Shown here: in pieces, positions 11,622 to 58,579 of the stretch | How positions within the stretch are numbered: the stretch's first letter is position 1 | Layout of the letters: each line of letters begins with the position of its first letter | Source of the DNA: Duganella sp. Leaf126 | GTDB taxonomy: Bacteria; Pseudomonadota; Gammaproteobacteria; Burkholderiales; Burkholderiaceae_D | Length of the DNA: 64,000 nucleotides | Assembly (NCBI RefSeq): GCF_001423125.1 | Contig: NZ_LMNW01000005.1 | Location: forward strand, 62,001 to 126,000 | Reading direction: 5' to 3' | Notes under the pieces: model-generated | Told to the model about the DNA's origin: nothing | Databases searched by the model: none | What the model saw: only the letters and a program-made list of their open reading frames with translations | Translations under genes and position numbers: made by a program

Positions 11622-12739
<1,118 letters not shown>

Positions 12740-12743
<4 letters not shown>

Positions 12744-19361: not shown

Positions 19362-20065
19362 GCCGGCACCGGTGGCGGCTCGATCTGGCTGGCCATCGGC
19401 GCCATGGTGCGGATCAGCATGATGCTCATGTCCGACACCTCGCGCTCGGCGCATTCGGCCAGCGTGCCATGCCACTCCGCCTCGTTACGGGTCAGGTTTT
19501 CCCAGACCTCGACCGGCTGGCTGGCAGGAATGCCCTGCTCGATCAGGTATTTGGCGATATGCCACGGCATGAACGAACGCGCCGCATCCCAGGGACACGG
19601 GATGACGATGGCATTGCGCTGGTCCTGCAGCACATGCACCAGGTGGCGCTTGAACGGCTCCAGGTCGCCGCGCCGGTGGAAGGTGATGAAGGTGGTCTCG
19701 TCGAAGCACACCTTGGCGCGCGAGGCCAGGATCTGCGCCGATGAAATGCCGGGCAGCGATTCGACCGGGTGGCCGCAGGCGCGCTCCACGCGCTCCAGGT
19801 ACTGGAAGCCGCTGAAATGGATGTCGCCCATGAAGACGACCACGCATTTCTTGCCGGCGTGGTGTTCCACCGCGACCTTGTCGAGCTGCTCGACCTGGTC
19901 GCGGTAACCCATGCTGATCACGCGCGCGGTGTCGGGAATCAGGCTGCGCACCACATTGAGCACGGCCTCGAAGCCGGCCACCACGTCGGCGTCGCGTATC
20001 AATTCCGCGCCGCGCTGGGTCAGGTAACCGACGTCGCCGGGACCGGCGCCTATACAAATAATCAT
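19358..20065 (-). CDS. cbiE: Cobalt-precorrin-7 C5-methyltransferase CbiE (no CbiT domain)
   Basis: The 235-residue protein has the CobL/CbiE N-terminal fold ([38 protein letters not shown]) and methylates C5. In many proteobacteria CobL also carries a CbiT domain that methylates C15 and decarboxylates the C12 chain; here the protein ends before such a domain and none of the operon genes encodes it. A 50-base gap separates it from the chelatase gene upstream, the widest gap among the biosynthetic genes from cobN to cobW. It overlaps the next gene by 4 bases. Confidence 0.87.
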
Positions 20066-20115
20066 TACTGCTCCTGATAAAACTTTAGGATGATCGCCAT
20101 CTTGCCATTATGCCG

Positions 20116-22383: not shown

Positions 22384-22395
22384 CGTGTGCCTGTC

Positions 22396-26553: not shown

Positions 26554-26882
26554 TTCGGTCCAGGTTCGCAGGTATCCCCCACGCCAAGGCAGTGGAATAC
26601 CAGGTCGGCGACTTCGCGCCCGCCCAGCAGGTGGTCGTGGACGATGCGCTCGGCATTGGCTTCGTTGACGCGCTGGTACCACACGCCTTCTGGATAGACC
26701 ACCACCACCGGCCCTTCGAAGCGGCACGCGACCATGCAGTGGGTGCGCGTGCGCTTGACGGCCAGTTCCGGGTGCGCGTCGATGATCTTGCCCATGTGCT
26801 CGAAGACGGCTTGCGCGCGGCCTTCTTTCGGCTCGCAGCGCGGACCGACGCACATGAAGATGTGACGGTGGTGAGTTCTCAT
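26550..26882 (-). CDS. Thioredoxin-like [2Fe-2S] ferredoxin of the cobalamin operon
   Basis: The 110-residue protein has Cys11, Cys16, Cys49 and Cys53, with the C-x32-C-x3-C spacing of thioredoxin-fold [2Fe-2S] ferredoxins (HIFMCVGPRC near the start, HCMVACRF in the middle). It lies between the cobalt transporter cbtA (27-base gap) and cobN (4-base overlap). Ferredoxins of this kind recur beside cobN. A role in supplying electrons, for example for cobalt reduction, is plausible but inferred from location only. Confidence 0.8.
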   Translation of the reverse strand: MRTHHRHIFMCVGPRCEPKEGRAQAVFEHMGKIIDAHPELAVKRTRTHCMVACRFEGPVVVVYPEGVWYQRVNEANAERIVHDHLLGGREVADLVFHCLGVGDTCEPGPK

Positions 26883-43934: not shown

Positions 43935-46868
43935 ATGAGACAAATGCTGACCGCTGCGGCGGGGGCACGGGCACTGCGCGCCCTCGCCCGCCACCTTCCA
44001 CTTCCCCCTGTCCTGCACCGTATCGCGCTCTGCAGCCTGTCCCTCGGTCTGCTGATTGCCGCGCCCGCGCAGGCACTGGGCCAGAAGCCGCTGGTGCTGT
44101 TCGCGGCGCCGCCCGCCGGCGCCGTGACCATGGCGGACAACGGCAAGGCCGCGCCGCTGTACGTGGATGCGGCCGACCATGCGGGCGTGCTGCGCGCCGC
44201 GCACGACCTGCAGGCCGATATCGCGCGCGTGACCGGCGTCACGCCGGCGCTGCAACAAGGTGCGCCGGCCGGCGCCGACGTCATCCTTATCGGCACGGTC
44301 GGCCACAGTCCGCTGATCGACAAGCTGGTGGCGACGGGCAAGCTCGATGTGGCGGCGATCCGCGGCAAGTGGGAAGGCTGGCAGGTGCAGACCGTGCTGC
44401 AGCCGATGCCGGGCGTGGAACGGGCCCTGGTGATTGCCGGCAGCGACAAGCGCGGCACCATCTACGGCATCTATGAAATGTCCGAGCAGATCGGCGTGTC
44501 GCCGTGGTACTGGTGGGCCGATGTGCCGCCGCCCAAGCGCGCCGCCCTGTATGCAGCGGCACCGGCAGCGGTGCACGATGCGCCCGTGGTCAGGTACCGC
44601 GGCATCTTCCTCAACGACGAGCAGCCGGCGCTGACCGGCTGGGTGCAGCAGACCTACGGCGGCTACAACCACCGCTTCTATGAAAAGGTGTTCGAGCTGC
44701 TGCTGCGTTTGCGCGCCAACTACCTGTGGCCCGCCATGTGGAACGCGGCGTTTTTCGATGACGATCCGCTCAACGGCAAGCTGGCCGACGATTACGGCAT
44801 CGTCATGGGCACCTCGCACCACGAGCCGATGATGCGCGCGCAAAAGGAGTGGGCACGCCAGGGCAAGGGCCCGTGGGACTATCAGCGCAACCCCGGGGTG
44901 CTGCGCAATTTCTGGACCGGCGGCATCCGCAACACGCGCGACTACGAGAAGATGATCACCATCGGCATGCGCGGCGACGGCGACGAGCCGATGTCGGAAG
45001 CGTCGAACGTGGCGCTGCTCGAGCGCATCGTGGCCGACCAGCGCACCATCATCGGCCAGCAGATGGGGCGCGACGCCGCCACCGTGCCGCAGATGTGGGC
45101 GCTGTACAAGGAAGTGCAGGACTACTACGAACAGGGCATGCGCGTGCCGGACGATGTGACGCTGCTGTGGGCCGACGATAACTGGGGCAATATCCGCCGC
45201 CTGCCCACCGCCGAAGAACGCAAGCGCAGCGGCGGCGCCGGCGTGTATTACCACTTCGATTACGTGGGCGGCCCGCGCTCGTACAAATGGCTCAACGTCA
45301 CGCCGCTGCCGAAGATCTGGGAGCAGATGCACCTGGCGTGGCAGTACCAGGCCGACCGCATCTGGATCGTCAACGTGGGCGACCTGAAGCCGATGGAAGT
45401 GCCGATCGAATTCTTCCTCACCTATGCCTGGAACCCGGCCGCGTGGCCGGCCGCGCGCCTGCCCGACTATCTGAAACTGTGGGCCACGCGCGAATTCGGA
45501 CCGGAGCACGCCGACGCCATCGCCGACATCGTTGCCAGCTACGCGCGTTACAACGGCCGCCGCAAACCGGAACAGCTGGCGCCGGACACCTACAACCTGG
45601 TCAATTACGACGAGTCCGAGCGCGTGGTGGCCGAATTCCGTGCCATCGCCGACCGCGCCGAAAAAATCGCGGCGCAGCTGCCGGCCGCGCAGCGCGATGC
45701 CTTCTTCCAGCTGGTGCAGTACCCGGCGCAGGCCAGCGCCGTGGTCACCGAGCTGTATGCGACAGCGGGCCGCAACCGGCTGCACGCGGTGCAGGGCCGC
45801 ACCTCGACCAACGACCTGGCGCTGCGCGCGCGCAGCCTGTTCGCGCAGGATGCGGAGCTTATGCGCCGCTACCACCAGGAGATCAGCGGCGGCAAGTGGA
45901 ACCACATGATGTCGCAGACCCACCTCGGTTATACCTACTGGAACCAGCCGCCGCGCAACGTGATGCCGGCCGTGAGCGAGGTGCAGGCGCCAGTGGCGGC
46001 CGACATGGGCGTGGCCGTGCAAGGCAGTGCGCAGGCATGGCCCGGACCCGACAGCGACAAGCTCGCCCTGCCCCCGCTCGACGAATACACCGGGGCGCCC
46101 GCGTACCTGGAAGTATTCAATCGCGGCCAGCAGCCGTTCGACTACCGCATCACGGCCAGCGCGCCTTGGATAGAGATCGACCAGCCGGATGGCCGGGTGG
46201 AACGCGACCGCCGTGTCTACATCAAGGTGCGCTGGGACCAGGTGCCGCGGGGCGCCGATCGCGCAGTGCTGACCGTGCAGGGTCCCAACCGCGCCAAGGT
46301 CGCTATCCAGGCGCCGCTGCGCCGCCTGCTGCCCGGCGTTACCGCCGGCGATTACGTCGAAACCGGCGGCGTGGTGTCGGTCGAAGCGGCCGACTACAGC
46401 CGCGCGGTGGCGCCGGCCGGGCGCCAGTGGCTGACCATACCGGGCCACGGCCGCACGCAGTCCGGCGTCACCGCGCTGCCGGTGGTGGCCACACCAGAGC
46501 AGTCGCCGTCGATGCGGCTTGAATACGCGGTGCACCTGCAGACGGCCGGCCCGGTCGTGGTCCACGCCACGCTGGCGCCTACCCAGAAGTTCCAGCCCGG
46601 CGCCGGCCTGCGCTACGCCGTCTCGTTCGATGACGAAGCGCCGCAGCTGGTGAATATGCATGCCGACCAGTCCGAGCGGGCCTGGGAAAAGAGCGTCTCG
46701 GACGGCGCCACCGTCATGTCGTCGCGTCACACCATCGCCAGGCCCGGCCACCACACGCTGAAGTTCTGGGCGATCGACGCGGGCGTGGTGCTGCAAAAAA
46801 TCGTGGTCGATACGGGCGGCATGAAGGACAGCTATCTCGGTCCGCCGGAAAGCCCGCGCGCCCGGTAA
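43935..46868 (+). CDS. GH115 xylan alpha-1,2-glucuronidase
   Basis: The 977-residue protein carries a signal peptide (cleavage near AQALG) and matches the GH115 layout. An N-terminal domain (about 50-180) is followed by a barrel (RGIFLNDEQPALTGW, NYLWPAMWNAAFFDDD, GTSHHEPMMRAQ, GMRGDGDEPM), a helical region and a beta-rich C-terminus. GH115 enzymes remove glucuronic or 4-O-methylglucuronic acid from internal or terminal xylose of glucuronoxylan. With GH67 downstream it gives the locus two complementary alpha-glucuronidases. Confidence 0.92.
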   Translation: MRQMLTAAAGARALRALARHLPLPPVLHRIALCSLSLGLLIAAPAQALGQKPLVLFAAPPAGAVTMADNGKAAPLYVDAADHAGVLRAAHDLQADIARVTGVTPALQQGAPAGADVILIGTVGHSPLIDKLVATGKLDVAAIRGKWEGWQVQTVLQPMPGVERALVIAGSDKRGTIYGIYEMSEQIGVSPWYWWADVPPPKRAALYAAAPAAVHDAPVVRYRGIFLNDEQPALTGWVQQTYGGYNHRFYEKVFELLLRLRANYLWPAMWNAAFFDDDPLNGKLADDYGIVMGTSHHEPMMRAQKEWARQGKGPWDYQRNPGVLRNFWTGGIRNTRDYEKMITIGMRGDGDEPMSEASNVALLERIVADQRTIIGQQMGRDAATVPQMWALYKEVQDYYEQGMRVPDDVTLLWADDNWGNIRRLPTAEERKRSGGAGVYYHFDYVGGPRSYKWLNVTPLPKIWEQMHLAWQYQADRIWIVNVGDLKPMEVPIEFFLTYAWNPAAWPAARLPDYLKLWATREFGPEHADAIADIVASYARYNGRRKPEQLAPDTYNLVNYDESERVVAEFRAIADRAEKIAAQLPAAQRDAFFQLVQYPAQASAVVTELYATAGRNRLHAVQGRTSTNDLALRARSLFAQDAELMRRYHQEISGGKWNHMMSQTHLGYTYWNQPPRNVMPAVSEVQAPVAADMGVAVQGSAQAWPGPDSDKLALPPLDEYTGAPAYLEVFNRGQQPFDYRITASAPWIEIDQPDGRVERDRRVYIKVRWDQVPRGADRAVLTVQGPNRAKVAIQAPLRRLLPGVTAGDYVETGGVVSVEAADYSRAVAPAGRQWLTIPGHGRTQSGVTALPVVATPEQSPSMRLEYAVHLQTAGPVVVHATLAPTQKFQPGAGLRYAVSFDDEAPQLVNMHADQSERAWEKSVSDGATVMSSRHTIARPGHHTLKFWAIDAGVVLQKIVVDTGGMKDSYLGPPESPRAR

Positions 46869-46891
46869 ACAAAAAAAATCACGGAGACACC

Positions 46892-49126
46892 ATGCATACA
46901 TCATTTGCCAATGCACTGGCGGCACTGCTGCTGGCCGGCGCCATCGGTCTGGCTGCTGCAGCACCGGCAGCGTCGGCAGCGCCGGCTGGCGCGCCTGCAA
47001 CCGCCGCCCGGACACAGCATACGGCCCCCGACGAAGATGGCTACAAGCTGTGGCTGCGCTATCAGGCGCTGGCCCCCGCTGCGCAGGAACGGCTGCAAGC
47101 CCAGGCACGCAGCATCGTCCTTGCCGCTGCAGCGACGCCGACCACCAGCGCCGCCATCGCCGAGCTGCAGCGCGGCCTGGCCGGCATGACCGGCACGGCG
47201 CCGCCGCAGGCCAGTGCGCTCGCCGACGGTGCACTGGTGCTGGCGACACCGGCTTCCATGCCGTCACTCGATGCCGCCTTGAAAGCCGAACTGGCGCAAC
47301 TGGGCCAGGAAGGCTATCTGCTGCGCGCGACGCGCCTGCAGGGTCGTGCGGTGACACTGATCGCCGCCAACGCCGACACCGGCCTGCTGTACGGCGCTTT
47401 TGCCTGGTTGCGCGCCGCCGCCACCGGCGTGGCGCCGGAAGCGCGCTCCGCTCCCGGGCTGCAACTGCGCCTGCTCAACCACTGGGACAATCTCGACCGC
47501 CACGTGGAACGCGGCTACGCGGGCGCGTCGATCTGGGACTGGTGGGCGCTGCCGGAGATCGTCGACAGCCGCTACACCGATTACGCGCGAGCCAATGCCT
47601 CGCTGGGCATCAACGGCACGGTGCTCAATAACGTCAACGCCAAGCCCGAGGTGCTCACTGCGGCCTACATCGCCAAGGCGGCCGCTGTGGCCGACGTGCT
47701 GCGTCCCTATGGCATCAGGGTATTCCTGTCGGCGCGGTTTTCCACGCCGCTGGAGCTGAAGGAAACCGATACGGCAGATCCGCTGGCGCCTGCCGTGCAG
47801 GCCTGGTGGAAGAACAAGGCCGACGAGATTTACCGCGCCATCCCCGACTTCGGCGGCTTCCTGGTCAAGGCCAATTCCGAAGGCCAGCCCGGTCCCCAGG
47901 ATTATCACCGCAGCCATGCCGATGGCGCCAACATGCTGGCTGCGGCGCTGGCGCCACACCATGGCATCGTGATGTGGCGCGCGTTCGTGTATGCGCCGCA
48001 CCCCGATCCGAAAACCGACCGCGCCCGCCAGGCCTACGAAGAGTTCAAGCCGCTCGACGGCAAGTTTGCCTCCAACGTGATCGTGCAGGTAAAAAACGGC
48101 GCCATCGACTTCCAGCCGCGCGAGCCATTCCACCCGCTGTTCGGCGCGATGCCGCACACGCCGCTGATGATGGAATTCCAGATCACCAAGGAGTACCTGG
48201 GCTTTTCCACCGATATCGCCTACCTCGGCACCTTGTTCTCCGAAGTGCTCGACAGCGACACCATGCAACGCGGCCAAGGCAAGGGGCCGACGGTGGCGCA
48301 GGTGCTCGAGGGCGGCGACGCGCCGCGCCAGCTGACCGGGATGGCCGGCGTGGCCAACATCGGCGTGGACCGCAACTGGACCGGCCACCATTTCGATCAG
48401 GCCAACTGGTATGCGTTCGGCCGCCTGGCCTGGAATCCGCAGGCATCGGCCCAGCACATCGCCAAGGAATGGGCCGCGCAAACCTTCGGCAACGATGACC
48501 GCGTCCAGCAGCAGGTGGTGCAGATGCTGATGATGTCGCGCGAAACGGTGGTCGATTACATGACGCCCCTGGGCTTGCACCACCTGATGGGCACTGCCCA
48601 CCATCACGGTCCGGCACCGTGGGTGAATGACCTGGAACGCCCGGACTGGAACCCCGTGTACTACCACCGCGCCGCCCGCGACGGCATCGGCTTCGATCGC
48701 ACCGCCAGCGGCACCAATGCGCTCGACCAGTATGCACCGGCGCTGGCCCGCCTGTACGCCGACCCGCGCACCACGCCCGACAGATACCTGCTGTGGTTCC
48801 ACCACCTGCCGTGGACTTACACCATGGCGTCGGGCCGTACGCTGTGGGCCGAGCTGCTGTGGCATTACGATCGCGGCGTGGCTGGCGCGCGCGACTTGCA
48901 AGCACGATGGGAAGCGCTGCGCGGCGCGGTCGATGCGCGCCGGCACGCGGAAGTCGCGCAGCGCCTGCGGCGCCAGGTGATCAATGCCGAATTGTGGCGC
49001 AATGCCTGCATCGCGTATTTCCAGTCCGTCTCGGGCCTGCCGCTGCCGCCCGGGGTGGCACCGCCACCGCAATCACTCGATGCCTACAAGGCCATTCATT
49101 TCCCTTATGCGCCCGGTCGCGGCTGA
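46892..49126 (+). CDS. GH67 alpha-glucuronidase
   Basis: The 744-residue precursor has a signal peptide (MHTSFANALAALLLAG...). Conserved GH67 blocks include LLNHWDNLD, YGIRVFLSARFSTP, VKANSEGQPGP (Glu330, acid), GAIDFQPREP (Asp406) and EFQITKEYLGF (Glu434); the last two keep the 28-residue spacing of the known catalytic pair. GH67 releases methylglucuronic acid from the non-reducing terminal xylose of xylo-oligosaccharides. A GGAGAC ribosome site precedes ATG 46892, 23 bases after GH115. It is the last gene of the esterase operon. Confidence 0.93.
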   Translation: MHTSFANALAALLLAGAIGLAAAAPAASAAPAGAPATAARTQHTAPDEDGYKLWLRYQALAPAAQERLQAQARSIVLAAAATPTTSAAIAELQRGLAGMTGTAPPQASALADGALVLATPASMPSLDAALKAELAQLGQEGYLLRATRLQGRAVTLIAANADTGLLYGAFAWLRAAATGVAPEARSAPGLQLRLLNHWDNLDRHVERGYAGASIWDWWALPEIVDSRYTDYARANASLGINGTVLNNVNAKPEVLTAAYIAKAAAVADVLRPYGIRVFLSARFSTPLELKETDTADPLAPAVQAWWKNKADEIYRAIPDFGGFLVKANSEGQPGPQDYHRSHADGANMLAAALAPHHGIVMWRAFVYAPHPDPKTDRARQAYEEFKPLDGKFASNVIVQVKNGAIDFQPREPFHPLFGAMPHTPLMMEFQITKEYLGFSTDIAYLGTLFSEVLDSDTMQRGQGKGPTVAQVLEGGDAPRQLTGMAGVANIGVDRNWTGHHFDQANWYAFGRLAWNPQASAQHIAKEWAAQTFGNDDRVQQQVVQMLMMSRETVVDYMTPLGLHHLMGTAHHHGPAPWVNDLERPDWNPVYYHRAARDGIGFDRTASGTNALDQYAPALARLYADPRTTPDRYLLWFHHLPWTYTMASGRTLWAELLWHYDRGVAGARDLQARWEALRGAVDARRHAEVAQRLRRQVINAELWRNACIAYFQSVSGLPLPPGVAPPPQSLDAYKAIHFPYAPGRG

Positions 49127-49212
49127 CCAGCTGGCCGCCTGCGTGTGCAAGCGAACATACAGGCGTCCTCTTCAACCCCATGATGCAAGAACGATATTTT
49201 TCCGTTCACATC

Positions 49213-50292
49213 ATGTCTCCACTTGCCCGCTTACGCCACGATCTGGCGCCGGCGCCCACCAGGGTGCCGGCCTTGCTGGCGCAGTTCCTGTCCGGCGCGC
49301 ACGATGACGCCGCCGCCACCCTCGCTGGCGCCATCGCTGCCGGACTCGATAGGCTGCCGCTGCCCGGCAGCGGCGCCACCCTGACGCGCTGGCAGGCGCT
49401 GTCCATCGCAGGCCATCATGACCTGTCGTTCGCCAAGCTGTACGAGGGCCACACCGACGCCCTGGCCATTCTGGCGGAACTCGGCGGACCGCAGATCGCC
49501 GGCGCCAGCTGGGGCGTGTGGTGCGCCGAGCCGCCCGGGCCCGCCGTAGCGTTGCGCATGCAAGGCGATGGCCGGTACACGCTGTCCGGCCGCAAGCTGT
49601 GGTGCTCGGGCGCGGCGGCGTTGAGCCATGCCCTGGTCAGCTGCCGCGATGCGGCCGGCCGGCGCATGCTCGCTGCGGTCGATCTGCGCCAGCCCGGCGT
49701 GCACGTGACAGACCAGGGCTGGCACGCCGTCGGCATGGCCGGCAGCGCCAGCGTGGACGTGGAATTCAGCGAGGCGCAGGCGGTACCGGTCGGCGAACAC
49801 GAATCCTACCTGACCCGCGCCGGCTTCTGGCACGGCGGCGCCGGCGTGGCAGCCTGCTGGTACGGCGCCGCCCGCGCCATCGGCGAACGGCTGTTGACAT
49901 CTACCCATGCGCAGCTTGCGCCACGTACTGCAGATGGCGAAGCCTCTGCGCAGGCCGATCCGCATCGCCTCGCGCACCTCGGCCACGTCGATCTCGCGCT
50001 GTCCGGCGCTGCGGCGGTGCTGATCGGGAGTGCGGCAGCGATCGACGCGGCACCGGACACCGGCGCCCAGGCGCTGGCGCTGCGCGTGCGCCTGACCGTG
50101 GAGGCGGCAGCGAGCACCGTGCTCGAACACGCGACCCGGGCGCTCGGCGCCGGTCCGCTGTGCCGGGACGCCCGCTTCGCGCGCATGGCAGCCGACCTGC
50201 CCGTGTTCCTGCGCCAGAGCCACGCGGAACGCGACCTGGCCACGCTGGGATCGACGCTGGCTGCCACCGGAGACGCTCCATGGGCTTTATGA
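49213..50292 (+). CDS. Acyl-CoA dehydrogenase-like flavoprotein of an uncharacterised cluster
   Basis: From ATG 49213 the protein is 359 residues. It shows the acyl-CoA dehydrogenase order: helical N-terminal part, middle beta domain (YTLSGRKLWCSGAA, MLAAVDLRQPGV, GWHAVGMAGSASVDVEF) and C-terminal helices (FLRQSHAERDLATLG). It is shorter than typical fatty-acid enzymes. ATG 49180 is also in frame; neither has a good ribosome site. It is the first of four genes joined by short overlaps with a deacetylase, a methyltransferase and a glycosyltransferase, so its substrate is probably a lipid or polyketide-like part of their product rather than a beta-oxidation intermediate. Confidence 0.75.
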   Translation: MSPLARLRHDLAPAPTRVPALLAQFLSGAHDDAAATLAGAIAAGLDRLPLPGSGATLTRWQALSIAGHHDLSFAKLYEGHTDALAILAELGGPQIAGASWGVWCAEPPGPAVALRMQGDGRYTLSGRKLWCSGAAALSHALVSCRDAAGRRMLAAVDLRQPGVHVTDQGWHAVGMAGSASVDVEFSEAQAVPVGEHESYLTRAGFWHGGAGVAACWYGAARAIGERLLTSTHAQLAPRTADGEASAQADPHRLAHLGHVDLALSGAAAVLIGSAAAIDAAPDTGAQALALRVRLTVEAAASTVLEHATRALGAGPLCRDARFARMAADLPVFLRQSHAERDLATLGSTLAATGDAPWAL

Positions 50293-51167
50293 ACACTGCA
50301 TTAATTGCGGCGCATGCCGCTGCCGGCCCCGCCCCGGGCGGTCTGCTGCATGAACCACAGCATCCGCGCCAGATCGCCGGCCAGGGCACGCCGGACGCCG
50401 CATGGCAGGCGTGGGAAGGCTTGCGCCTGATGCCGTCCATCGCTGCGCACGAACTGGTGGCGCCGGGCCAGCGCGCCATCATCGTGGCGCCGCACCCCGA
50501 CGACGAAGTACTGGCCTGCGGCGGCTTGCTGCAGCTGCTGGCGGCGCAAGGCACGCGCACCGTCATCATTGCCGCCACCGACGGCGACGCCAGCCACCCG
50601 GGCTCGCAGCGCTACACGCCGGCGCAGCTGGCCCGCCTGCGCGCCCGCGAGACCGAAGCCGCCTTGCGGGCACTGCTCGGGCAAGACCCGCTCGCTGCGA
50701 CGCATGCCGCACCACCGTTGCCGCGGCAGTCGCCGTCCCCGCTTCCGCAGATTATCCGCGCCCGCCTGCCCGATGGCGACGTCACCGGTCAGGCGAGTGT
50801 ACTGCACACCCTGCTCGGCCAGCTGCTGCGCCCCGATGACGTGCTGTTTACTACCTGGCGCCAGGATGGCCATCCCGACCACGAAGCGTGCGGCCACGCT
50901 GCCGCCATGGCCGCACGGCTGTGCGGCGCGCGCCTGGTGGAACTGCCGGTATGGACCTGGCACTGGGCCGAACCGGGCGACCGGCGCGTGCCGTGGCACC
51001 GCGCGCGGCGCCTGGCGCTCGATGCCGCGACCTTGCAGCGCAAGCACGACGCCATTGCCTGCTACACCACCCAGCTCGAACCCGATCCGACCACCGGCCA
51101 GCCGGCCATCCTGCCGCCGCATGTGCTGGCGCGCCTCACGCATCCTTACGAGATCTGCTTCCTATGA
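50280..51167 (+). CDS. PIG-L family (LmbE-like) deacetylase
   Basis: The 295-residue protein has the zinc-site motif HPDDE at 72-76 and the second site HPDHE from residue 198, as in N-acetylglucosamine-type deacetylases of the PIG-L/LmbE/MshB superfamily. A non-conserved extension of about 60 residues precedes the fold. ATG 50280 is chosen because GGAG lies 7 bases upstream; it overlaps the dehydrogenase by 13 bases, while the alternative ATG 50289 gives an ATGA overlap. The stop overlaps the methyltransferase start by 4 bases. It probably deacetylates a sugar made or carried by the neighbouring enzymes. Confidence 0.88.
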   Translation: MGFMNTALIAAHAAAGPAPGGLLHEPQHPRQIAGQGTPDAAWQAWEGLRLMPSIAAHELVAPGQRAIIVAPHPDDEVLACGGLLQLLAAQGTRTVIIAATDGDASHPGSQRYTPAQLARLRARETEAALRALLGQDPLAATHAAPPLPRQSPSPLPQIIRARLPDGDVTGQASVLHTLLGQLLRPDDVLFTTWRQDGHPDHEACGHAAAMAARLCGARLVELPVWTWHWAEPGDRRVPWHRARRLALDAATLQRKHDAIACYTTQLEPDPTTGQPAILPPHVLARLTHPYEICFL

Positions 51168-51787
51168 CCATCAGCAACCGGCACAGCCACTTCCAGCAGC
51201 TCTACACCGACGATGCCGATCCGTGGAAGGTGCGCCAGCGCTGGTATGAACAGCGCAAACGCAGCCTGCTGCTCGCGTGCCTGCCGCTGCAGCACTACCG
51301 CCACGCCTTCGAACCGGCCTGCGGCAACGGCGAGCTGACGGCAGCGCTGGCGCAGCGGGCCGACGCCGTGCTGGCCACCGACCTCTCGCCCGAGGCGGTA
51401 CGCCTGACGCAGCAGCGCGTGCGCCAGGAGGAGGCGGCTGCCGCCGCCCGCGTGACGGTGCGCCAGCAGGTGGTGCCGCAGGAGTGGCCCGAGCATACCT
51501 TCGACCTGATCGTGATCAGCGAGATGGCGTACTACCTGCCCGAGCACGAAGTGGGCACACTGCGCCAGCGCTGCATGGCGTCGCTGGACGACCATGGCAC
51601 GCTGGTGCTGTGCCACTGGCGCTGGCCGTTTGCGGACCGTCAGCTCGACAGCGCCGACATCCACGCCGCCTTCGACGGCACGCCGGGCATGCACCGCCTG
51701 ATGCAGCACAGCGAAGCCGATTTCCTGCTCGATATCTGGTCGCGCAATCCGTGCTCGGTCGCGCAGAAGGAAGGGCTGGCGCCGTGA
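51164..51787 (+). CDS. NodS-like SAM-dependent methyltransferase
   Basis: The 207-residue protein has the class I methyltransferase motif EPACGNGELTAAL (50-62), ATDLSPEAV as the second motif, and FDLIVISEMAYYL. The N-terminus (HFQQLYTDDADPWKVRQRWYEQRK) resembles the NodS group, which methylates the free amino group of chitin oligosaccharides after deacetylation. Its position between a deacetylase and a glycosyltransferase fits N-methylation of an amino sugar. Overlaps of 4 bases on both sides suggest coupled translation. Confidence 0.85.
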   Translation: MTISNRHSHFQQLYTDDADPWKVRQRWYEQRKRSLLLACLPLQHYRHAFEPACGNGELTAALAQRADAVLATDLSPEAVRLTQQRVRQEEAAAAARVTVRQQVVPQEWPEHTFDLIVISEMAYYLPEHEVGTLRQRCMASLDDHGTLVLCHWRWPFADRQLDSADIHAAFDGTPGMHRLMQHSEADFLLDIWSRNPCSVAQKEGLAP

Positions 51788-52497
51788 TCGGCATCGTCAT
51801 CCCGGCCCATGACGAGGAGCGCTATCTGGCTGCCTGCCTTGCTGCCGTCAGCCAGGCAGCGTGTCATGCCGGCCTGCGCGGCGAGTCGGTCTGCGTGGCC
51901 GTGGTGCTCGATCACTGCCGCGACAATTCGCGCGCCATCGCCATGGCGCACGCCGGTGGGCTGCACGGCGCGGCTTACCGGGTGGATGTGCTGGAAGTCG
52001 ATGTCCGCAACGTCGGTGCGGCGCGCGCGGCCGGCGCCGAATGCCTGCTGGCGTATGGCGCGCGCTGGCTGGCGTTCACCGATGCCGATACGGTCGTGGC
52101 GCCTGACTGGTTAGTGGCGCAATTGCGGCTGGGGGTGGAGGTGGTATGCGGCACGGTGGCGGTGGACGACTGGTCGGCCCATCACGAGCAGCCGCTGCTG
52201 CTGAGCAGGCACTTCGACGCAGCCTACACCGATTGCGACGGCCATCGTCATATCCACGGCGCCAACCTCGGCGTGTGCGCGCTGGCCTACCGCACCGCGG
52301 GCGGTTTTGCCCCGCTGGCCTGCAGCGAGGACGTCGCGCTGGTGCGCGCGCTCGAACGCTGCGGCGCCAGTTTCGCCTGGAGCGCGGCGCCGCGCGTCAA
52401 GACCAGCGCACGCAGCGACGCACGGGCGCGCGGCGGCTTCGGCGACACCCTGCTCCAGTATGCTGCCGCCGCCATGCTGGCGCCGGCAGTGGCCTGA
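51784..52497 (+). CDS. Family 2 glycosyltransferase
   Basis: The 237-residue protein shows the GT-A fold: VIPAHDEERYLAACL at the start, VVLDHCRDNS, the metal-binding DAD at 100-102 in AFTDADTVV, and CSEDVALVRALE as the acceptor-site block. It starts with GTG, overlapping the methyltransferase stop by 4 bases (GTGA). No membrane helix is visible, so it is not a processive synthase. It should transfer one sugar to the compound handled by the preceding three enzymes. It ends the cluster. Confidence 0.87.
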   Translation: MIGIVIPAHDEERYLAACLAAVSQAACHAGLRGESVCVAVVLDHCRDNSRAIAMAHAGGLHGAAYRVDVLEVDVRNVGAARAAGAECLLAYGARWLAFTDADTVVAPDWLVAQLRLGVEVVCGTVAVDDWSAHHEQPLLLSRHFDAAYTDCDGHRHIHGANLGVCALAYRTAGGFAPLACSEDVALVRALERCGASFAWSAAPRVKTSARSDARARGGFGDTLLQYAAAAMLAPAVA

Positions 52498-52536
52498 TCC
52501 CGTGCAGGACCGGTCAGCCGGTTCAGGTAACACGGA

Positions 52537-52737
52537 TCAGGCAGTCTCCTTGCGGCGTGGCGCCACGCGCTGGTGCGACTCCGGCGCGCGCAGCACCTTG
52601 TAGGCGATGAAACGCGGGATACCCATGCTTATGGCGTACTGGGCTGCAGGGTCGAGCCCGGTCTCGGGCAGCAGCCGCCTGGCTTCCTCGATGATGGCGG
52701 CGGTGGCAGTAGGTTTGCGGCGGTCGGATAAGGGCAT
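52537..52737 (-). CDS. Small protein of unknown function
   Basis: A 66-residue reading frame starting MPLSDRRKPTATAAII contains a helical middle (EARRLLPETGLDPAA) and the segment YAISMGIPRFIAYKVL. It has a basic tail and no signal or membrane helix. The start at 52737 is preferred over 52806 because the upstream codons look non-coding. It is read in the same direction as the AraC gene 88 bases upstream and converges with the glycosyltransferase gene. No function is evident. Confidence 0.55.
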   Translation of the reverse strand: MPLSDRRKPTATAAIIEEARRLLPETGLDPAAQYAISMGIPRFIAYKVLRAPESHQRVAPRRKETA

Positions 52738-52825
52738 GGTGAACTCGCGGTGGCGTAAAGTTACAATGTACGGTGCGCTGGCGCCTGCGACTGTACGCAG
52801 CCTCACCCATTCCTTCCAAGCGGAA

Positions 52826-53731
52826 TTATTTTAGCTGGTGCAGCGCACGGAACGCACCGGGCGACATCAGCGCCTCGCGCCTGAAAAACTTGGTGAAATT
52901 GGTGGCCTCATCAAACCCGACCTGGCCACCGACCACGGCCACCGGAAGCGCCGTGTGCGCCAGCAGGCGCTTGGCCTCGAGCATGATGCGCTCGACGATG
53001 ACGGCCTTGGCAGTGCAATCGGCAAAGGCCTGTGCGGCGCGGTTGAGCGACTTGTCGGAACAACCGAGCGCTGCCGCGTAGTCCTGCACCTGGTGCCAGT
53101 GGCGGAAACGCTGCTCCACCAGCTGCAGGAAGCGCCGGTAACGCTGGCGCTCGCCGGCGCTGACCGGGTGGCCGGCGCTGGCCGCCTCGCGCTCGCCCCA
53201 GGCGATGGCCAGCCGGATCAATAAAGCGTGCAGCTGGTGGCGCAGCAAGGCATGCAGTTCACCGCGCACGGCCGGCAGCTGCGTATCGCGGTGCAGCTGG
53301 GCCACGGAGTCCGCCACCCGCTGCTGCAGGGCGCCATCGAGCTGCATGGGCTGGCCCAGCCAGGCCAGCTCCGGCGCCAGGCTGCGGCCAGCCTGCGCGG
53401 CGCCCGACGGCAACAGGAAATCGGACTGGAACAGCAGCAGCCAGCCATCCCAGGCGCCGTCGGTGTCGAATTGCTGGGCTTGTCCGGGCCTGGTCATCAG
53501 GATGGTGCCGGCCACGCAGTCGACTTGGCCGAAGTCGACCACGTGGGCGCACCGTCCCTCGGTCACGTACAGCAGCTGGTGGAAGTCGATGCGGTGCGCC
53601 CGGCGCAGCTGCTCGGCCTTTTGGCGGGGCCACAGCTCGGCCACACGAAAGACCTCGATGTCCAGATTATATTTGCCGAACGGTTGATAACCAACGCGTT
53701 CCATTCCCTGCGCTACCGTCGGTGTCGCCAT
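52826..53731 (-). CDS. AraC-family transcriptional regulator
   Basis: The 301-residue protein (from ATG 53731) has an N-terminal cupin-like sensor (FHQLLYVTEGRCAHVVDFG, ILMTRPGQAQQF) and a C-terminal double helix-turn-helix (about 205-300; DYAAALGCSDKSLNRAAQ, then VGFDEATNFTKFFRREALMSPGAFR). It diverges from the flavodoxin-like gene across 116 bases, so that gene is the probable target. The ligand is unknown; the sensor domain resembles regulators of small aromatic or sugar metabolism. Confidence 0.87.
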   Translation of the reverse strand: MATPTVAQGMERVGYQPFGKYNLDIEVFRVAELWPRQKAEQLRRAHRIDFHQLLYVTEGRCAHVVDFGQVDCVAGTILMTRPGQAQQFDTDGAWDGWLLLFQSDFLLPSGAAQAGRSLAPELAWLGQPMQLDGALQQRVADSVAQLHRDTQLPAVRGELHALLRHQLHALLIRLAIAWGEREAASAGHPVSAGERQRYRRFLQLVEQRFRHWHQVQDYAAALGCSDKSLNRAAQAFADCTAKAVIVERIMLEAKRLLAHTALPVAVVGGQVGFDEATNFTKFFRREALMSPGAFRALHQLK

Positions 53732-54421: not shown

Positions 54422-56974
54422 TCAGCTGCCGCTGTTCAGGGTCAGCGGCAGCCAGCTTGCATGCGCGTAGCGCTGCAAGCCTGCCTGGTCGAAGCGCCAC
54501 AGGTGCAGCCAGCCATGGTCGAGCAGCTGCCTGACCACGGCATGCTTGCCGATCACCGCGTCGATCGCCGCCTGCGGGGCGTCGATCACCACGGTCAGCC
54601 GCAGCGGTTCATGCATCCAGCGCTCGCCGTCGTGCAGCGACTGCTGCGACAGGCCGATGCGCAAATCGCCGCCATTGCCCTCGAATACGCCGAGCGTGCC
54701 GCCCACCACGTTGTGCAGCAGCTTGTTGCCGCTGCCCAGGCGCTGCGGATCGCAGGTGGACGCGTGGTACTGCCAGTTGATCCAGTGGGTCACCAGCATC
54801 GGCGCCGTCATCAACAGTTCGAGCACGCTGCCGTCGGCATCGAGGCTGGCGTCGTAGTCGTGCAGGAAGCTGCGCCCGTCGAGCGCCAGACCCATGCTGC
54901 GCCGACGCGGCGCAATCAAAAAGGCCGCATTGCCCGCCAGGCCCCATTCGGGCCGGGTCTGGGCGCCATCGTTGGCGCGGCGGATCAGCTGGTCCAGTAA
55001 TGCATCGTGCGATGCCTGCGGATCGAGCCGCAGGCTCAGGGCCCGCTCGCGCCGCACCTGGTCGCCGGCCTGCGCAAAGACCGCCTGCAGCCGCAGCCAG
55101 CGCGCCTGCGCTGCCGGCGGCAGCAGATCCAGATCGAAGCCCTCGATCTGATCGGTGGTGGTGTTATGCAGCGCCGCCACGAACACCGTCGTCTCCGGCA
55201 CGTGCACGCCCCGCCCTTGCAGGCCTTGGCGCACCGCCCCATCGTTGAGCAATTGCGCCAGGCTGCGCGCATTCACCTCGCCGGTCTGGCCGCAGCAGGC
55301 GCCGCAATCGAGCGCCGCCGCATGGGCATTGTTGGCGGACTGGCTGCCGTGGCCGACCAGCAGCACCAGCGGCGCCAGCTGCTGCTCCAGCCCCATCGCA
55401 TGCAGCACCCGCGCCGCCAGCGCGACCTTGGCGTCCAAGTCCACACCCAGCAATTGTGGCCGGCAGAGCTGGCGGTAGCGGGTGGACAAGCCGGCCAGAT
55501 CGTCGCGCGCGCGCGCTTGACGGTTCGGCCGAAGCCAGTTGCCGAGTTTGCCGACATAAGCCACGCCCGCCGCTTCCACGAAGGAGAAGGCGGCGCCCGG
55601 CCAGCGACTGGCCGCCAGCCACTGGTCGGCCCGTGCAAAACGCGCCTGGCGCGCGCGGCTGGCCGCGCCTAGTCTGGCCGCATCGTCCGCGCGCTGCACC
55701 GGATCGCTGCTGACGATGCGGTCGCCGACCGCCATCGATGGCGCCAGCAGCCCTGGCAGCTGGGGCCGGCTGGCCTCGGTCGCCAACGGGGTGTAATCGA
55801 CCGGCAAGCCGAAAAACCCGGCAAACCCGAGCGTCCGGATGCCGGGCCACGCCGCCTCCAGCGCGCGCCGCAACGGTTCGCTGCGCACGTCGATACAGAA
55901 CGCGGCCTGCACTTCGATGGCAGTTGCTGGCGCATCGTGCACATGGGCTGCCGCCAGCTGCTGGGCCAGCGCGCGCTGATAGCCGATCTCGAGGGCCAGC
56001 TGCCAGACCTCGTCGGGCAGCAAGGCCTGTTCGGCGTCCTGCAATACGGCCCCAGCCTGGCTCCAGGCTTGCTGCAATGCGCCAAACGCCTGCCGGGCCG
56101 CTGCATCGTCCTTGCACTCGAGCAGCAACACGCCCCAAGCCAGACGGATTGCCAGCAGTTCGCGCAGGTGGCTGTCCTGGCGTCCGGCCAGGCCGGCCTG
56201 CCAGCCGAGATAGGCGCACCACGAAGCCCAGCCGTTGACGGTCAGCAGCACCGATTCCAGGTAGTCCGCCCAGACCGCCTGCGGCAGCCCCAGGCGCTCG
56301 ATCACCCAGCGCTCGGCGTCCTGCACGGTGGCGGGCAAGGCGCTGATCGCCCGGCCGATGTGCGGCAAACCCATCAGCAAGCCGATGCCATGGTCGTGCT
56401 GCAAGGTTTCGCGCCAGAACGCATACAGGCCCTGGCTGCGCTCGGGCTGCCAGCTGGCCTGGTGTTCATCGAAATACGCGGCGCAGGTCTGGCTGACCTG
56501 GTGCGTGATGGCCTGCCGCCACGGCAGCCTGGTATGGCGCTGGGGATCGTTGTCGAGTACGTCGATCAGCAAGGGCAGTTGCACCCGCAGCGCGCCTGCC
56601 TGCAGTGCAGCGATGCACTGTTCGGCCGTCACGGCGGCGGTCTGCGCAGCCGGCAGCTGACGCAGCGCCTCGGCCAGATCGGCTGCCGTGATGCGGCCCT
56701 CGCGCCAGGCCAGCAGTTGCCGGTCGCGCGGCGGGAAAACCTGGATCCCGCCCAGCACCGCCATCCGCGCAGCCACGCGGCGCACCGGCATGCCGATGCG
56801 CGACCAGTGCGGGTTGACGGCAATGGCGCGATCGAGCGGCCAGGCCGGGGCGATGGCCTGGCAGGCCATTGCGCAGGCGCGTGCGATGGCCGCGTGCCTG
56901 GTTTGCGCCACGTCGCCGGCCGCCATGAGGTCTTCCGCTGGCGCGGTTGCTTGCTTGCTCAGTTGATCGATCAT
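54422..56974 (-). CDS. dabA: DabA, carbonic-anhydrase-like subunit of an inorganic carbon pump
   Basis: This 850-residue protein belongs to the DUF2309/UPF0753 family, now known as DabA. The zinc site is complete: Cys360 and Asp362 in FCIDVRSE, His542 in VGHGSQSANN, and Cys557 in LDCGACCGQTGE. DabA converts CO2 to bicarbonate at the cytoplasmic face in a reaction driven one way by ion flow through DabB. The gene starts 21 bases after dabB, and a LysR gene lies upstream in divergence. Length and spacing of the site residues are normal for the family. Confidence 0.93.
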   Translation of the reverse strand: MIDQLSKQATAPAEDLMAAGDVAQTRHAAIARACAMACQAIAPAWPLDRAIAVNPHWSRIGMPVRRVAARMAVLGGIQVFPPRDRQLLAWREGRITAADLAEALRQLPAAQTAAVTAEQCIAALQAGALRVQLPLLIDVLDNDPQRHTRLPWRQAITHQVSQTCAAYFDEHQASWQPERSQGLYAFWRETLQHDHGIGLLMGLPHIGRAISALPATVQDAERWVIERLGLPQAVWADYLESVLLTVNGWASWCAYLGWQAGLAGRQDSHLRELLAIRLAWGVLLLECKDDAAARQAFGALQQAWSQAGAVLQDAEQALLPDEVWQLALEIGYQRALAQQLAAAHVHDAPATAIEVQAAFCIDVRSEPLRRALEAAWPGIRTLGFAGFFGLPVDYTPLATEASRPQLPGLLAPSMAVGDRIVSSDPVQRADDAARLGAASRARQARFARADQWLAASRWPGAAFSFVEAAGVAYVGKLGNWLRPNRQARARDDLAGLSTRYRQLCRPQLLGVDLDAKVALAARVLHAMGLEQQLAPLVLLVGHGSQSANNAHAAALDCGACCGQTGEVNARSLAQLLNDGAVRQGLQGRGVHVPETTVFVAALHNTTTDQIEGFDLDLLPPAAQARWLRLQAVFAQAGDQVRRERALSLRLDPQASHDALLDQLIRRANDGAQTRPEWGLAGNAAFLIAPRRRSMGLALDGRSFLHDYDASLDADGSVLELLMTAPMLVTHWINWQYHASTCDPQRLGSGNKLLHNVVGGTLGVFEGNGGDLRIGLSQQSLHDGERWMHEPLRLTVVIDAPQAAIDAVIGKHAVVRQLLDHGWLHLWRFDQAGLQRYAHASWLPLTLNSGS

Positions 56975-56995
56975 GAAATTCTCCGTGTAATCTGA

Positions 56996-58579
56996 TTAGC
57001 GCGCAGCATCCACTGCCCGGGCGGCAGACGGCTGGGCGGCGATGCGGACAGCAGTGACCGCGGACGCTGGGCTCCAGCGCGCCGGCCACAGCAGCAGTGC
57101 CAGGCGGGTATAGGCTTCATCGAGATAAAAGCCGGCGTAGCTCCAGCGCCGCCAGCGCGACAGCAGCTGCGCCTGCTGTTGCAGCGCCACCTCGAACAGG
57201 TACAGCACTGCCATGCCGGCCAGGACGATCACGCCCAGGCGGTGGTCGGGCGCGTCGTGCAGGCCGAACGGCAGCAGGTGGGCGACCATGGCGGCAACCG
57301 TCAGCGCCATCGTGGTGACGATGCCAAACAGCAGCTGGCGCGTACGGGCAGCACCGCCAGCTTGCCCGGTGGGCAGCCACAGCAGCGGCGCCCACGCCAG
57401 GCCCATCACGACGCTCCACCACCAGGGCCAGGCCGCCACACCCGACAGCGCGAGCACCAGCAATACCGCCGACGTCGTGATCAGCGGCGCCAGCAGCAGG
57501 CTAGCGCCATGCGGCGAGGACGTTCCGTGCAGCGCCTGTACCCGCGTGTCGCGCACCACCGACGACGCCGACAGGAACGCATGCGCCTTGTAGAGCGAAT
57601 GTCCGACCAGGTGCAGGGCCGCGAGCGTGTACAGACCGAGCGCGCATTCGAGCAGCATGAAGCCCATCTGCGCCACCGTGGACCAGGCCAGCCTGACCTT
57701 GATGCTGATGCGGGTCAGCATGACCATGCCGGCCAGCAGCGCGGTCGCCAGGCCCAGGATCATCAGCAGGCCGCGCGCGGGACCGGCCTGTTCCAGCAGT
57801 GGCGCACAGCGTATCAGCACGAAACCGCCCAGGTTGACGACGCCTGCATGCAGCAATGCCGACACCGGGGTCGGCGCTTCCATCACCTGGATCAGCCAGC
57901 CATGGACTGGCAACAGCGCGGTGCGCAGCACCACCGCCAGCACCAGCAGCACGGCGCTTGCATGCAGCGGCAGCGACATGCCATGCTGGGCCAGGTGCGC
58001 CCACAGCGCCGACAGCGCACCGCTGCCGATCGTCGACCACGCCAGCCCAGCAGCGCCCAGCAGGATGACGTCGGCCAGCCGGTCGGCAATGCGCTTTTTA
58101 TGCGCCGCCAGCAAGGCGAACGGGCGATCCGGGTAAAAGCACAGCAGCTGCTGCAAGGCCATGCCCACGGCCGCCCAGGCTGCGATCAACAGCAGCCAGT
58201 GGTCGGCCAGCAGCAGCAGGTGGACGCTGGCCAGTACGGCGGCCAGGCCGCCGATGTAGCGTTGCTGGGCGGCTTCGCCATCCAGGTAGCGCGCAGAAAA
58301 CGCGCCGATAACGGTGCCCAGCAGCTGCACCAGCACGGCCAGCACCAGGCTGAACGTGGTCGCATTCACGACGCCAGGCCAGAACGGCTGCTGCGCGCCG
58401 ACCGCGAGCGACAGCGCGCAGCAGGCCAGCGCCGCCAGCGACACCGTCCGAAACAGCCGCCACTGCTGCGCCGGAGCACGGTCGGTGCAGCGCGTCGCCA
58501 GGGCCAGCGCCGCCAGCAACGTCAGCAAGGCGACCGGCGCCAGCGCGCAAACCATGTAAATAATCTGGAAAATCTTCAT
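56996..58579 (-). CDS. dabB: DabB, proton-channel subunit (NuoL/antiporter-like)
   Basis: The 527-residue membrane protein is related to NuoL and Mrp antiporter subunits, with about a dozen helices. Conserved blocks include HGWLIQVMEAPTPVSALLHAG, typical of proton-conducting helices, and LHLVGHSLYKAHAFLS. Paired with DabA it supplies a cation or proton gradient for CO2 hydration. The start is set at 58579 (MKIFQIIYMV), giving a membrane-inserting N-terminus; the longer frame to 58627 adds a polar stretch. It is the first gene of the pair and is divergent from the LysR gene. Confidence 0.92.
   Translation of the reverse strand: MKIFQIIYMVCALAPVALLTLLAALALATRCTDRAPAQQWRLFRTVSLAALACCALSLAVGAQQPFWPGVVNATTFSLVLAVLVQLLGTVIGAFSARYLDGEAAQQRYIGGLAAVLASVHLLLLADHWLLLIAAWAAVGMALQQLLCFYPDRPFALLAAHKKRIADRLADVILLGAAGLAWSTIGSGALSALWAHLAQHGMSLPLHASAVLLVLAVVLRTALLPVHGWLIQVMEAPTPVSALLHAGVVNLGGFVLIRCAPLLEQAGPARGLLMILGLATALLAGMVMLTRISIKVRLAWSTVAQMGFMLLECALGLYTLAALHLVGHSLYKAHAFLSASSVVRDTRVQALHGTSSPHGASLLLAPLITTSAVLLVLALSGVAAWPWWWSVVMGLAWAPLLWLPTGQAGGAARTRQLLFGIVTTMALTVAAMVAHLLPFGLHDAPDHRLGVIVLAGMAVLYLFEVALQQQAQLLSRWRRWSYAGFYLDEAYTRLALLLWPARWSPASAVTAVRIAAQPSAARAVDAAR

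Follow-up and report, generated by a model that had tools for sequence, protein, structure and literature searches.

Gene layout of the locus

The stretch of DNA analyzed here (the window) covers 64,000 nucleotides of contig NZ_LMNW01000005.1 (positions 62,001 to 126,000) from Duganella sp. Leaf126, whose assembly totals 5.31 Mb. Positions 49213 to 52497 of the window hold four consecutive plus-strand open reading frames (ORFs), here called the cassette, whose overlaps measure 13 (or 4), 4, and 4 bases. The ORF coordinates were checked, and the overlapping genes of one direction and their domain families described at these positions by an initial annotation made from the sequence were confirmed. 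The four genes are as follows.

49213..50292, + strand: gene 1, flavoprotein of the acyl-CoA dehydrogenase (ACAD) fold, 359 amino acids (Pfam Acyl-CoA_dh_M, 2.9e-09)
50280..51167, + strand: gene 2, PIG-L/LmbE-type deacetylase, 295 amino acids (PF02585, 5.3e-23)
51164..51787, + strand: gene 3, NodS-like S-adenosylmethionine (SAM)-dependent methyltransferase, 207 amino acids (Methyltransf_25, 1.7e-11; NodS, 1.4e-10)
51784..52497, + strand: gene 4, small GT2 (GT-A) glycosyltransferase, 237 amino acids, GTG start (Glycos_transf_2, 4.3e-11)

A codon-based gene caller recovered the same four genes and started gene 1 later, at 49264, so the start of this gene may lie there or at 49213. An alternative in-frame ATG of gene 2 at 50289 would shorten its overlap with gene 1 from 13 to 4 bases. 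The promoter and terminator scan of 48900 to 52900 found nothing at the cassette start.

Distribution and composition of the cassette

Scanning with gene 1 identified at least 459 relatives. The 80 best-scoring loci were kept; these are the nearest ones and belong to the Beta- and Gammaproteobacteria as far as their titles tell. Loci (numbered with the prefix L) were called by tblastn with the window proteins, a full set being defined as four same-strand genes no more than 4.5 kb apart in total. All four genes occur together in 60 of these best 80 loci, which indicates that the grouping is not due to chance, and gene 1 is accompanied by the methyltransferase in 77. The remaining combinations are gene 1 with the PIG-L and methyltransferase genes (14/80), gene 1 with the methyltransferase and glycosyltransferase genes (3/80), gene 1 with PIG-L (1/80), and gene 1 alone (2/80); in one of the latter (L085) the other three genes are found about 5.6 kb further on. 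The glycosyltransferase gene lies ahead of gene 1 in four loci (L097, L117, L125, and L146). Another 26 stretches, at least 3 of them from the same genomes as loci of the 80 set, were inspected, and 18 match all four proteins (in L060 with the glycosyltransferase on the opposite strand), while the others have no match to PIG-L, the glycosyltransferase, or both. Weak gene 1 matches (E value above 1e-16, e.g., L032 to L040) proved to be ordinary members of the ACAD/SfnB kind and were left out of the cassette counts.

The closest gene 1 copies among the matches listed belong to Duganella, Janthinobacterium, Variovorax, and Massilia. At an E value below 1e-100, gene 1 is found in 6 of 24 other genomes of the genus; at 1e-30, 47 of the 245 family genomes have a match (own genome included), representing 10 of 44 genera. 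Among 299 genomes of the phylum (own genome included), 34 have a match at 1e-3 and 13 have one below 1e-50. Distant full sets are present in Kitasatospora, Streptomyces, Acinetobacter, Pandoraea, Comamonas, Legionella, Novosphingobium, and Sulfitobacter records, with gene 1 identities of about 28 to 51% where measured, and whole or partial versions, partly plasmid borne, also occur in Alphaproteobacteria, Deinococcus, and Rubrobacter. A Methylobacterium plasmid (L151) carries gene 1 only. The Deinococcus radiodurans version has gene 1 fused behind an N-terminal 421-residue domain (L198:1178-3517), for which no convincing match was found in Pfam, NCBIfam, or PDB, and a helicase gene between the PIG-L and methyltransferase genes. 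An extra 347-amino-acid protein annotated as a glycosyltransferase precedes gene 1 at L197:7727-8770, and similar proteins of about 350 amino acids are seen in some alphaproteobacterial cassettes; the L197 protein has no NCBIfam or convincing PDB sequence match, and its relative in L060 has no Pfam match.

The conserved co-occurrence across phyla supports the proposal of the initial annotation that the four genes serve one pathway. The objection it had raised against itself, that the set might not recur in related genomes, fell away in the genome search.

Gene 1, a flavoprotein of the acyl-CoA dehydrogenase fold

Gene 1 scores 37.4 bits against the Pfam model PF02770 (cut-off, 33.3), which places it in the ACAD fold. 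Its predicted structure (predicted local distance difference test [pLDDT] score, 91.2) matches ACADs, TdsC/DszC, and KijD3 alike, with Z scores of 30.8 to 32.6 and root mean square deviations of 2.6 to 3.5 over 316 to 333 aligned residues among the 50 matches listed. Because these groups score about equally, the fold alone cannot decide the class of the enzyme. A PDB search with a profile of 33 gene 1 homologues is headed by the thermophilic DszC (TdsC; 2e-11) and the methanesulfinate monooxygenase MsuC (2.6e-10), along with two entries that bear the name "acyl-CoA dehydrogenase type 2 domain protein," one of which is titled as a flavin-containing monooxygenase; the first entry with an acyl-CoA dehydrogenase name scores 6e-10. 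DszC, DnmZ, KijD3, and ORF36 follow, with true dehydrogenases interspersed and below. DnmZ, KijD3, and ORF36 are nitrososynthases, i.e., amino-sugar N-oxygenases.

For comparison, ACAD-fold proteins from 18 loci were scored with the gene 1 profile, which matched 15 frames (one, L037_3, is a wrong frame and was ignored); two of the nine ACAD loci of the Duganella genome in this set were matched (L153 and the LHDP-type L161). The best LHDP-type row reached 43.9 bits and the rows bearing the catalytic glutamate 21.4, 18.3, and 16.0 bits, so that the profile is nearer to DszC/SfnB-type flavin monooxygenases than to dehydrogenases. The column of the catalytic glutamate, in the C-terminal EGT-type loop, holds serine in 32 and glycine in 1 of the 33 gene 1 homologues and glutamate in none; canonical comparison rows keep the glutamate (L153_2; L038_0, YEGT; L032_0, GEGT). 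An R-Q-x-H motif is invariant around this column (five distant rows read R-Q-P, R-Q-A, or R-Q-C). As SfnB-like monooxygenases have LHDP at this place and gene 1 has R-Q-S-H instead, the loop represents a third type. The stretches KLYEGHTDA, WCSGA, and RQSH are conserved among the homologues.

Gene 1 thus shares its fold and nearest sequence profile with the ACAD-fold amino-sugar N-oxygenases (KijD3, ORF36, and DnmZ) and with DszC, TdsC, MsuC, and SfnB, but differs from them in its identity of about 20% and in its loop, which is neither LHDP nor the canonical EGT type. Judged by these sequence comparisons, it is probably a monooxygenase- or oxidase-like enzyme rather than a dehydrogenase. The acyl or lipid part that the initial annotation read from an acyl-CoA dehydrogenase-like protein is unsupported given the loss of the glutamate in all 33 homologues and the nearness to the DszC/SfnB-type monooxygenases, and such a product was dropped from consideration; a Pfam search also found no acyltransferase among the four window genes. 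"Acyl-CoA dehydrogenase" annotations beside PIG-L deacetylases may therefore be wrong about dehydrogenase function.

The PIG-L deacetylase and its replacements

The window PIG-L protein has the full metal-site motifs HPDD and DGHPDH, and the motif columns P71, H72, P73, D74, and D75 together with H198, D200, and H201 are invariant in 22 aligned rows. The nearest solved structures are diacetylchitobiose deacetylase, TT1542, glycopeptide deacetylases, MshB, and BshB. The protein shares the family and the HPDD and HxDH-type motifs with MshB, BshB, and diacetylchitobiose deacetylase, but it falls far below the NCBIfam cut-offs (44.4 bits versus 182.5 for BshB1), and its partner genes differ from those of MshB and BshB.

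Where the usual PIG-L gene appears to be replaced (DEACETYLASES), some loci have another deacetylase nearby. A divergent PIG-L gene lies behind the glycosyltransferase gene in L054, and a PIG-L gene is found beyond a catalase gene on the opposite strand in Cupriavidus (L193). In the cassette of a Rubrobacter plasmid (L200:4954-9605), a Polysacc_deac_1 gene (NodB type, CE4) occupies the usual PIG-L place 44 bases upstream of gene 1; this cassette also has an additional pyridine-nucleotide oxidoreductase gene. No deacetylase was found among the five scanned neighbors in Achromobacter piechaudii (L077), and L061 and L064 match gene 1 and the methyltransferase only. Conversely, the PIG-L cluster comprises 98 genes from 73 loci, and 24 Pseudomonas loci have a second PIG-L gene behind the glycosyltransferase gene, or behind the methyltransferase gene if no glycosyltransferase is called (e.g., L078:13178-13939); this paralogue suggests a second deacetylation. 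The replacement deacetylases and the second PIG-L copies together suggest, short of proof, that de-N-acetylation is an essential step.

The methyltransferase, the glycosyltransferase, and their likeness to Nod-factor synthesis

A profile of the methyltransferase finds in PDB the entry 4isc, a solved structure with no function named (5.8e-77), and NodS (3ofj; 1.2e-21). The window protein scores 41.8 bits on the Pfam NodS model (gathering score, 24) and hence belongs to the NodS superfamily. Scores on the NCBIfam NodS equivalog model, with its cut-off of 300 bits, are lower for cassette enzymes (47.1 for the window and 73.8 for the Bradyrhizobium cassette homologue) than for a nodABC-linked NodS (L206; 293). 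The N-terminal ADPW of the window protein contains a DPW motif that is present in 31 of 32 cassette methyltransferases and in all 5 NodS proteins; the tally drew on 33 pooled rows, from which a Mesorhizobium fusion was left out. The same letters occur in 1 of 21 other profile-matching methyltransferase loci of the Duganella genome, within a 1,076-residue frame. The fusion, a 970-amino-acid protein annotated as a glycosyltransferase, is encoded on a Mesorhizobium plasmid (L210:1498-4410), and its NodS-like part (approximately residues 500 to 665) branches next to NodS.

In a phylogenetic tree with two outgroup rows, the cassette methyltransferase of Bradyrhizobium has NodS and the Mesorhizobium fusion as its neighbors, with support that is not strong (89/75). 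With seven methyltransferases of the Duganella genome as the outgroup (and without the rows OUT_L194_MT, OUT_L200_arsM, Sphingo_L203, and cl_L063_9), the long branches are scattered over the tree, which loses its root and gives no direction of descent between NodS and the cassette enzyme.

The glycosyltransferase has the DxD (as DAD) and ED motifs of the GT-A fold. Its structural model (pLDDT, 92.2) has no extra membrane domain, and the best structural matches are WrtF (Z score, 22.6), AvpGT, and TarS/TarP.

The initial annotation had likened the deacetylase, N-methyltransferase, and glycosyltransferase to NodB, NodS, and NodC acting with different folds. The common logic is supported: the cassette and the Nod-factor core share a GT2 enzyme, amino-sugar de-N-acetylation, and a NodS-like methyltransferase with the DPW motif that adjoins NodS in the tree. 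The difference in fold holds for the deacetylase only, since the methyltransferase is related to NodS and the glycosyltransferase is of the GT2 class, as is NodC; the fold of NodB differs from that of PIG-L. The cassette also departs from the Nod-factor core in having a PIG-L instead of a CE4 deacetylase, no NodA acyltransferase, a small glycosyltransferase, and an ACAD-fold flavoprotein as its constant partner. Neither a NodA acyltransferase nor a NodB-type deacetylase is among the four window genes, and a CE4 gene was seen beside one cassette only, that of Rubrobacter L200.

Genomic neighborhoods

In 37 of 39 Pseudomonas loci, the called start of gene 1 lies between -29 and +93 bases relative to the glgX end. 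In 36 of these 37, treZ, malQ, and treY are also in front, and the contig of the remaining one begins inside treY; the gene names were confirmed by equivalog models on one locus, L078. The cassette is inserted between the trehalose genes otsA and otsB in two Comamonas plasmids (order otsA-ACAD-PIGL-MT-GT-otsB, where MT is the methyltransferase and GT the glycosyltransferase); at the outer joints, L194 has a 4-base overlap and a 4-base gap, and the genes of L205 overlap by 4 and 17 bases. It lies immediately behind otsB-otsA in L053 and L058, close to otsAB on Acinetobacter plasmids, and near otsB-GH65 in Legionella lytica, and a sucrose-phosphate synthase gene stands beside the alphaproteobacterial versions L059 and L063 (models run on L059). 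Among the 26 further stretches, six have ots genes, three treYZ-type genes, and two sucrose-phosphate synthase. The 20 plasmid-collection regions around cassette genes (L147 to L152 and L192 to L205; two without annotation and all with incomplete gene tables) include five with ots genes and one more with GlgE. Catalase genes recur beside cassettes, as do the Ku/LigD genes of nonhomologous end joining (NHEJ). In Achromobacter piechaudii (L077:6542-12239), Ku and LigD genes lead directly into ACAD-MT-GT with no PIG-L gene.

Of the trehalose enzymes, those of the ots and treYZ/glgX types were sought in the flanks, and neighbor frequencies are raw counts. The arrangements of the sugar genes differ between lineages, which favors a functional linkage over common descent, and the setting of the cassette in other genomes points to stress protection, with neighbor genes for defense against drought, oxidative stress, and DNA damage. 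This setting could not be seen by the initial annotation because it is absent around the window copy.

Published expression data and literature

In Acinetobacter baumannii, Table 2 of PMC5660220 lists an operon e (ACICU_02432-02435) that encodes a glycosyltransferase, a SAM-dependent methyltransferase, an LmbE protein, and an acyl-CoA dehydrogenase-related protein, i.e., the four products of the window cassette in the same order. The operon is 31- to 62-fold down in two colistin-dependent mutants, and otsA, otsB, and a catalase fall together with it (PMC5660220). In section 8 of that paper, these genes appear purely as differentially expressed genes for which no function is proposed. The A. 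baumannii locus L149 holds a cassette with a DUF2171 gene in front (84% to an annotated one) and, by eye, YgiW/BOF-like and BLUF genes behind it. Elsewhere in the literature, a DUF2171 gene drops along with katE and ots genes (PMC11348943), and neighbor-based predictions of BlsA partners include LmbE, a glycosyltransferase, and a methyltransferase (PMC9948694), with which the BLUF-like gene at L149 agrees.

A full-text search of openly licensed papers found no pathway description for this gene set, in line with the initial annotation, which knew of none. The cassette is widespread yet unstudied, a real finding, and partly plasmid borne.

Proposed pathway

We consider it reasonably likely that the cassette encodes a stress-linked pathway in which an amino-sugar metabolite is glycosylated, de-N-acetylated, N-methylated, and oxidized by a flavoprotein. 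The GT2 enzyme would transfer an N-acetylated amino sugar (with UDP-N-acetylglucosamine as a guessed donor) onto a small acceptor, PIG-L would take the acetyl group off, and the NodS-like enzyme would add a methyl group to the freed amine. The ACAD-fold flavoprotein may then oxidize the amino sugar or the aglycone, by analogy with ACAD-fold nitrososynthases acting on amino sugars. The product would most likely be a cytosolic protective metabolite, either compatible-solute-like or redox-active, whose synthesis would accompany that of trehalose and catalase in cells under osmotic or desiccation stress or the stress of stationary phase. We infer the chemistry (step order, donor, acceptor, and the flavin step) from the enzyme families, and the cellular location and protective role are likewise inferred; gene neighborhoods and the one expression table (PMC5660220) point to the stress link. 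The glycosyltransferase, PIG-L, and NodS-like set agrees with the amino-sugar part of the modified amino-sugar glycolipid suggested by the initial annotation, and the lipid part is not retained, gene 1 lacking the dehydrogenase glutamate. Its other suggestion, a small diffusible signal, may still apply; the neighborhoods in other genomes point to stress protection.

The spread of whole or partial cassettes across Oxalobacteraceae, Acinetobacter, Pseudomonas, Deinococcus, and Streptomyces, together with their repeated placement in or next to genes for trehalose, implies that these bacteria share a stress metabolite, one that may account for some of their desiccation tolerance. The cassette is also a possible source of the Nod-factor methyltransferase. 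A bolder version, which we regard as doubtful, sees in the product a new class of stress protectant, an oxidized N-methyl-amino-sugar glycoside assembled on trehalose or sucrose or next to them, which plasmids have carried between bacteria that tolerate drought and radiation. In this version, rhizobia took their NodS from the methyltransferase of a cassette of this kind. Were it true, part of Nod-factor chemistry would descend from a stress pathway.

Several observations weigh against the proposed pathway. To our knowledge, neither an enzyme activity nor a metabolite or mutant phenotype has been assigned to the cassette, and likeness to NodS is no proof that the cassette enzyme N-methylates. 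Its presence is patchy, as the 47 of 245 family genomes illustrate. With contig ends included, PIG-L is unseen in 5 of the 80 loci (one of which has a PIG-L gene behind an insertion) and the glycosyltransferase in 17; either may thus come from elsewhere or not be required. In Bradyrhizobium and Deinococcus sp. NW-56, the glycosyltransferase gene next to gene 1, PIG-L, and the methyltransferase runs on the opposite strand, and no glycosyltransferase is annotated beside the cassette in Roseomonas (gene 1, PIG-L, and the methyltransferase) or D. radiodurans. The Comamonas antarctica locus lies near acyl-CoA synthetase, MaoC, and CoA transferase genes, and a second ACAD gene is close by in the Kitasatospora locus. 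Flanking ots or treYZ/glgX genes occur in only 3 of the 41 non-Pseudomonas loci of the best 80, and no trehalose gene lies near the window copy; the single OtsB match of the genome is on another contig. Operon e was equated with the cassette by product names, gene order, and the L149 neighbors, not by ACICU sequence, and the mutants, being colistin dependent, do not represent a clean stress experiment (Table 2 of PMC5660220).

Alternative explanations

The cassette might instead decorate a surface glycan or glycolipid (lipopolysaccharide [LPS], capsule, or exopolysaccharide) with an N-methylated amino sugar under stress. The nearest glycosyltransferase folds include WrtF and TarS/TarP, to which surface-glycan roles are ascribed, several extra glycosyltransferases accompany alphaproteobacterial versions, and DnpA, a putative de-N-acetylase studied in Pseudomonas aeruginosa, reportedly has a link to LPS. 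Against this, the viewed plasmid regions (with their incomplete tables) have no gene annotated as a flippase, polymerase, or undecaprenyl-phosphate transferase inside the cassette, the two modeled proteins (gene 1 and the glycosyltransferase) are predicted to have soluble-type folds, and the cassette is linked to cytosolic solute synthesis. We hold a surface-glycan role to be unlikely.

Similarly improbable is a modified trehalose or sucrose, in which the glycosyltransferase would add an amino sugar to the disaccharide before deacetylation, methylation, and oxidation. This product would suit the cassettes that stand between otsA and otsB (two plasmids), behind glgX (37 of 39 Pseudomonas loci), or directly behind otsB-otsA (two others), and the sucrose-phosphate synthase genes beside two alphaproteobacterial versions. 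However, 38 of the 41 non-Pseudomonas loci of the best 80 have no such flank gene by the ots/treYZ/glgX queries, and shared regulation alone may explain the co-location.

There is little to recommend the view that these are co-located stress genes with separate roles, joined in an operon for regulatory convenience. The neighbors do form a loose stress island, and PIG-L or the glycosyltransferase is at times missing, but the overlaps are tight, the same set is kept with shuffled order in distant phyla, and in some loci the missing PIG-L gene is matched by a divergent PIG-L (L054 and L193) or by a deacetylase gene of the CE4 type (L200). A pathway to a low-molecular-weight thiol or a redox cofactor that pairs a glycosyltransferase with PIG-L, like that of mycothiol or bacillithiol, is very improbable and was disfavored: the PIG-L relatives include MshB and BshB, and a catalase is coregulated in the A. 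baumannii table (PMC5660220), yet the cassette glycosyltransferase is of the GT-A fold, whereas MshA and BshA are GT4 (GT-B) enzymes, and no MshC/BshC-like ligase is among the four genes.

Other genes in the window

Two large genes on the same strand lie upstream of the cassette at 43944 to 49126, alpha-glucuronidase-like by eye (GH115- and GH67-like), and the cassette begins 86 bases later. A general tie to these xylan genes was rejected, as a regulator-like gene intervenes in L041, the nearest relative, and no such gene pair stands in front in the other stretches drawn for comparison. A minus-strand pair at 54422 to 58579 (850 and 527 amino acids) resembles by eye a DabA/DabB-type inorganic-carbon system, and a long minus-strand gene run at 11622 to 26855 appears, again by eye, to be a cobalamin biosynthesis cluster.

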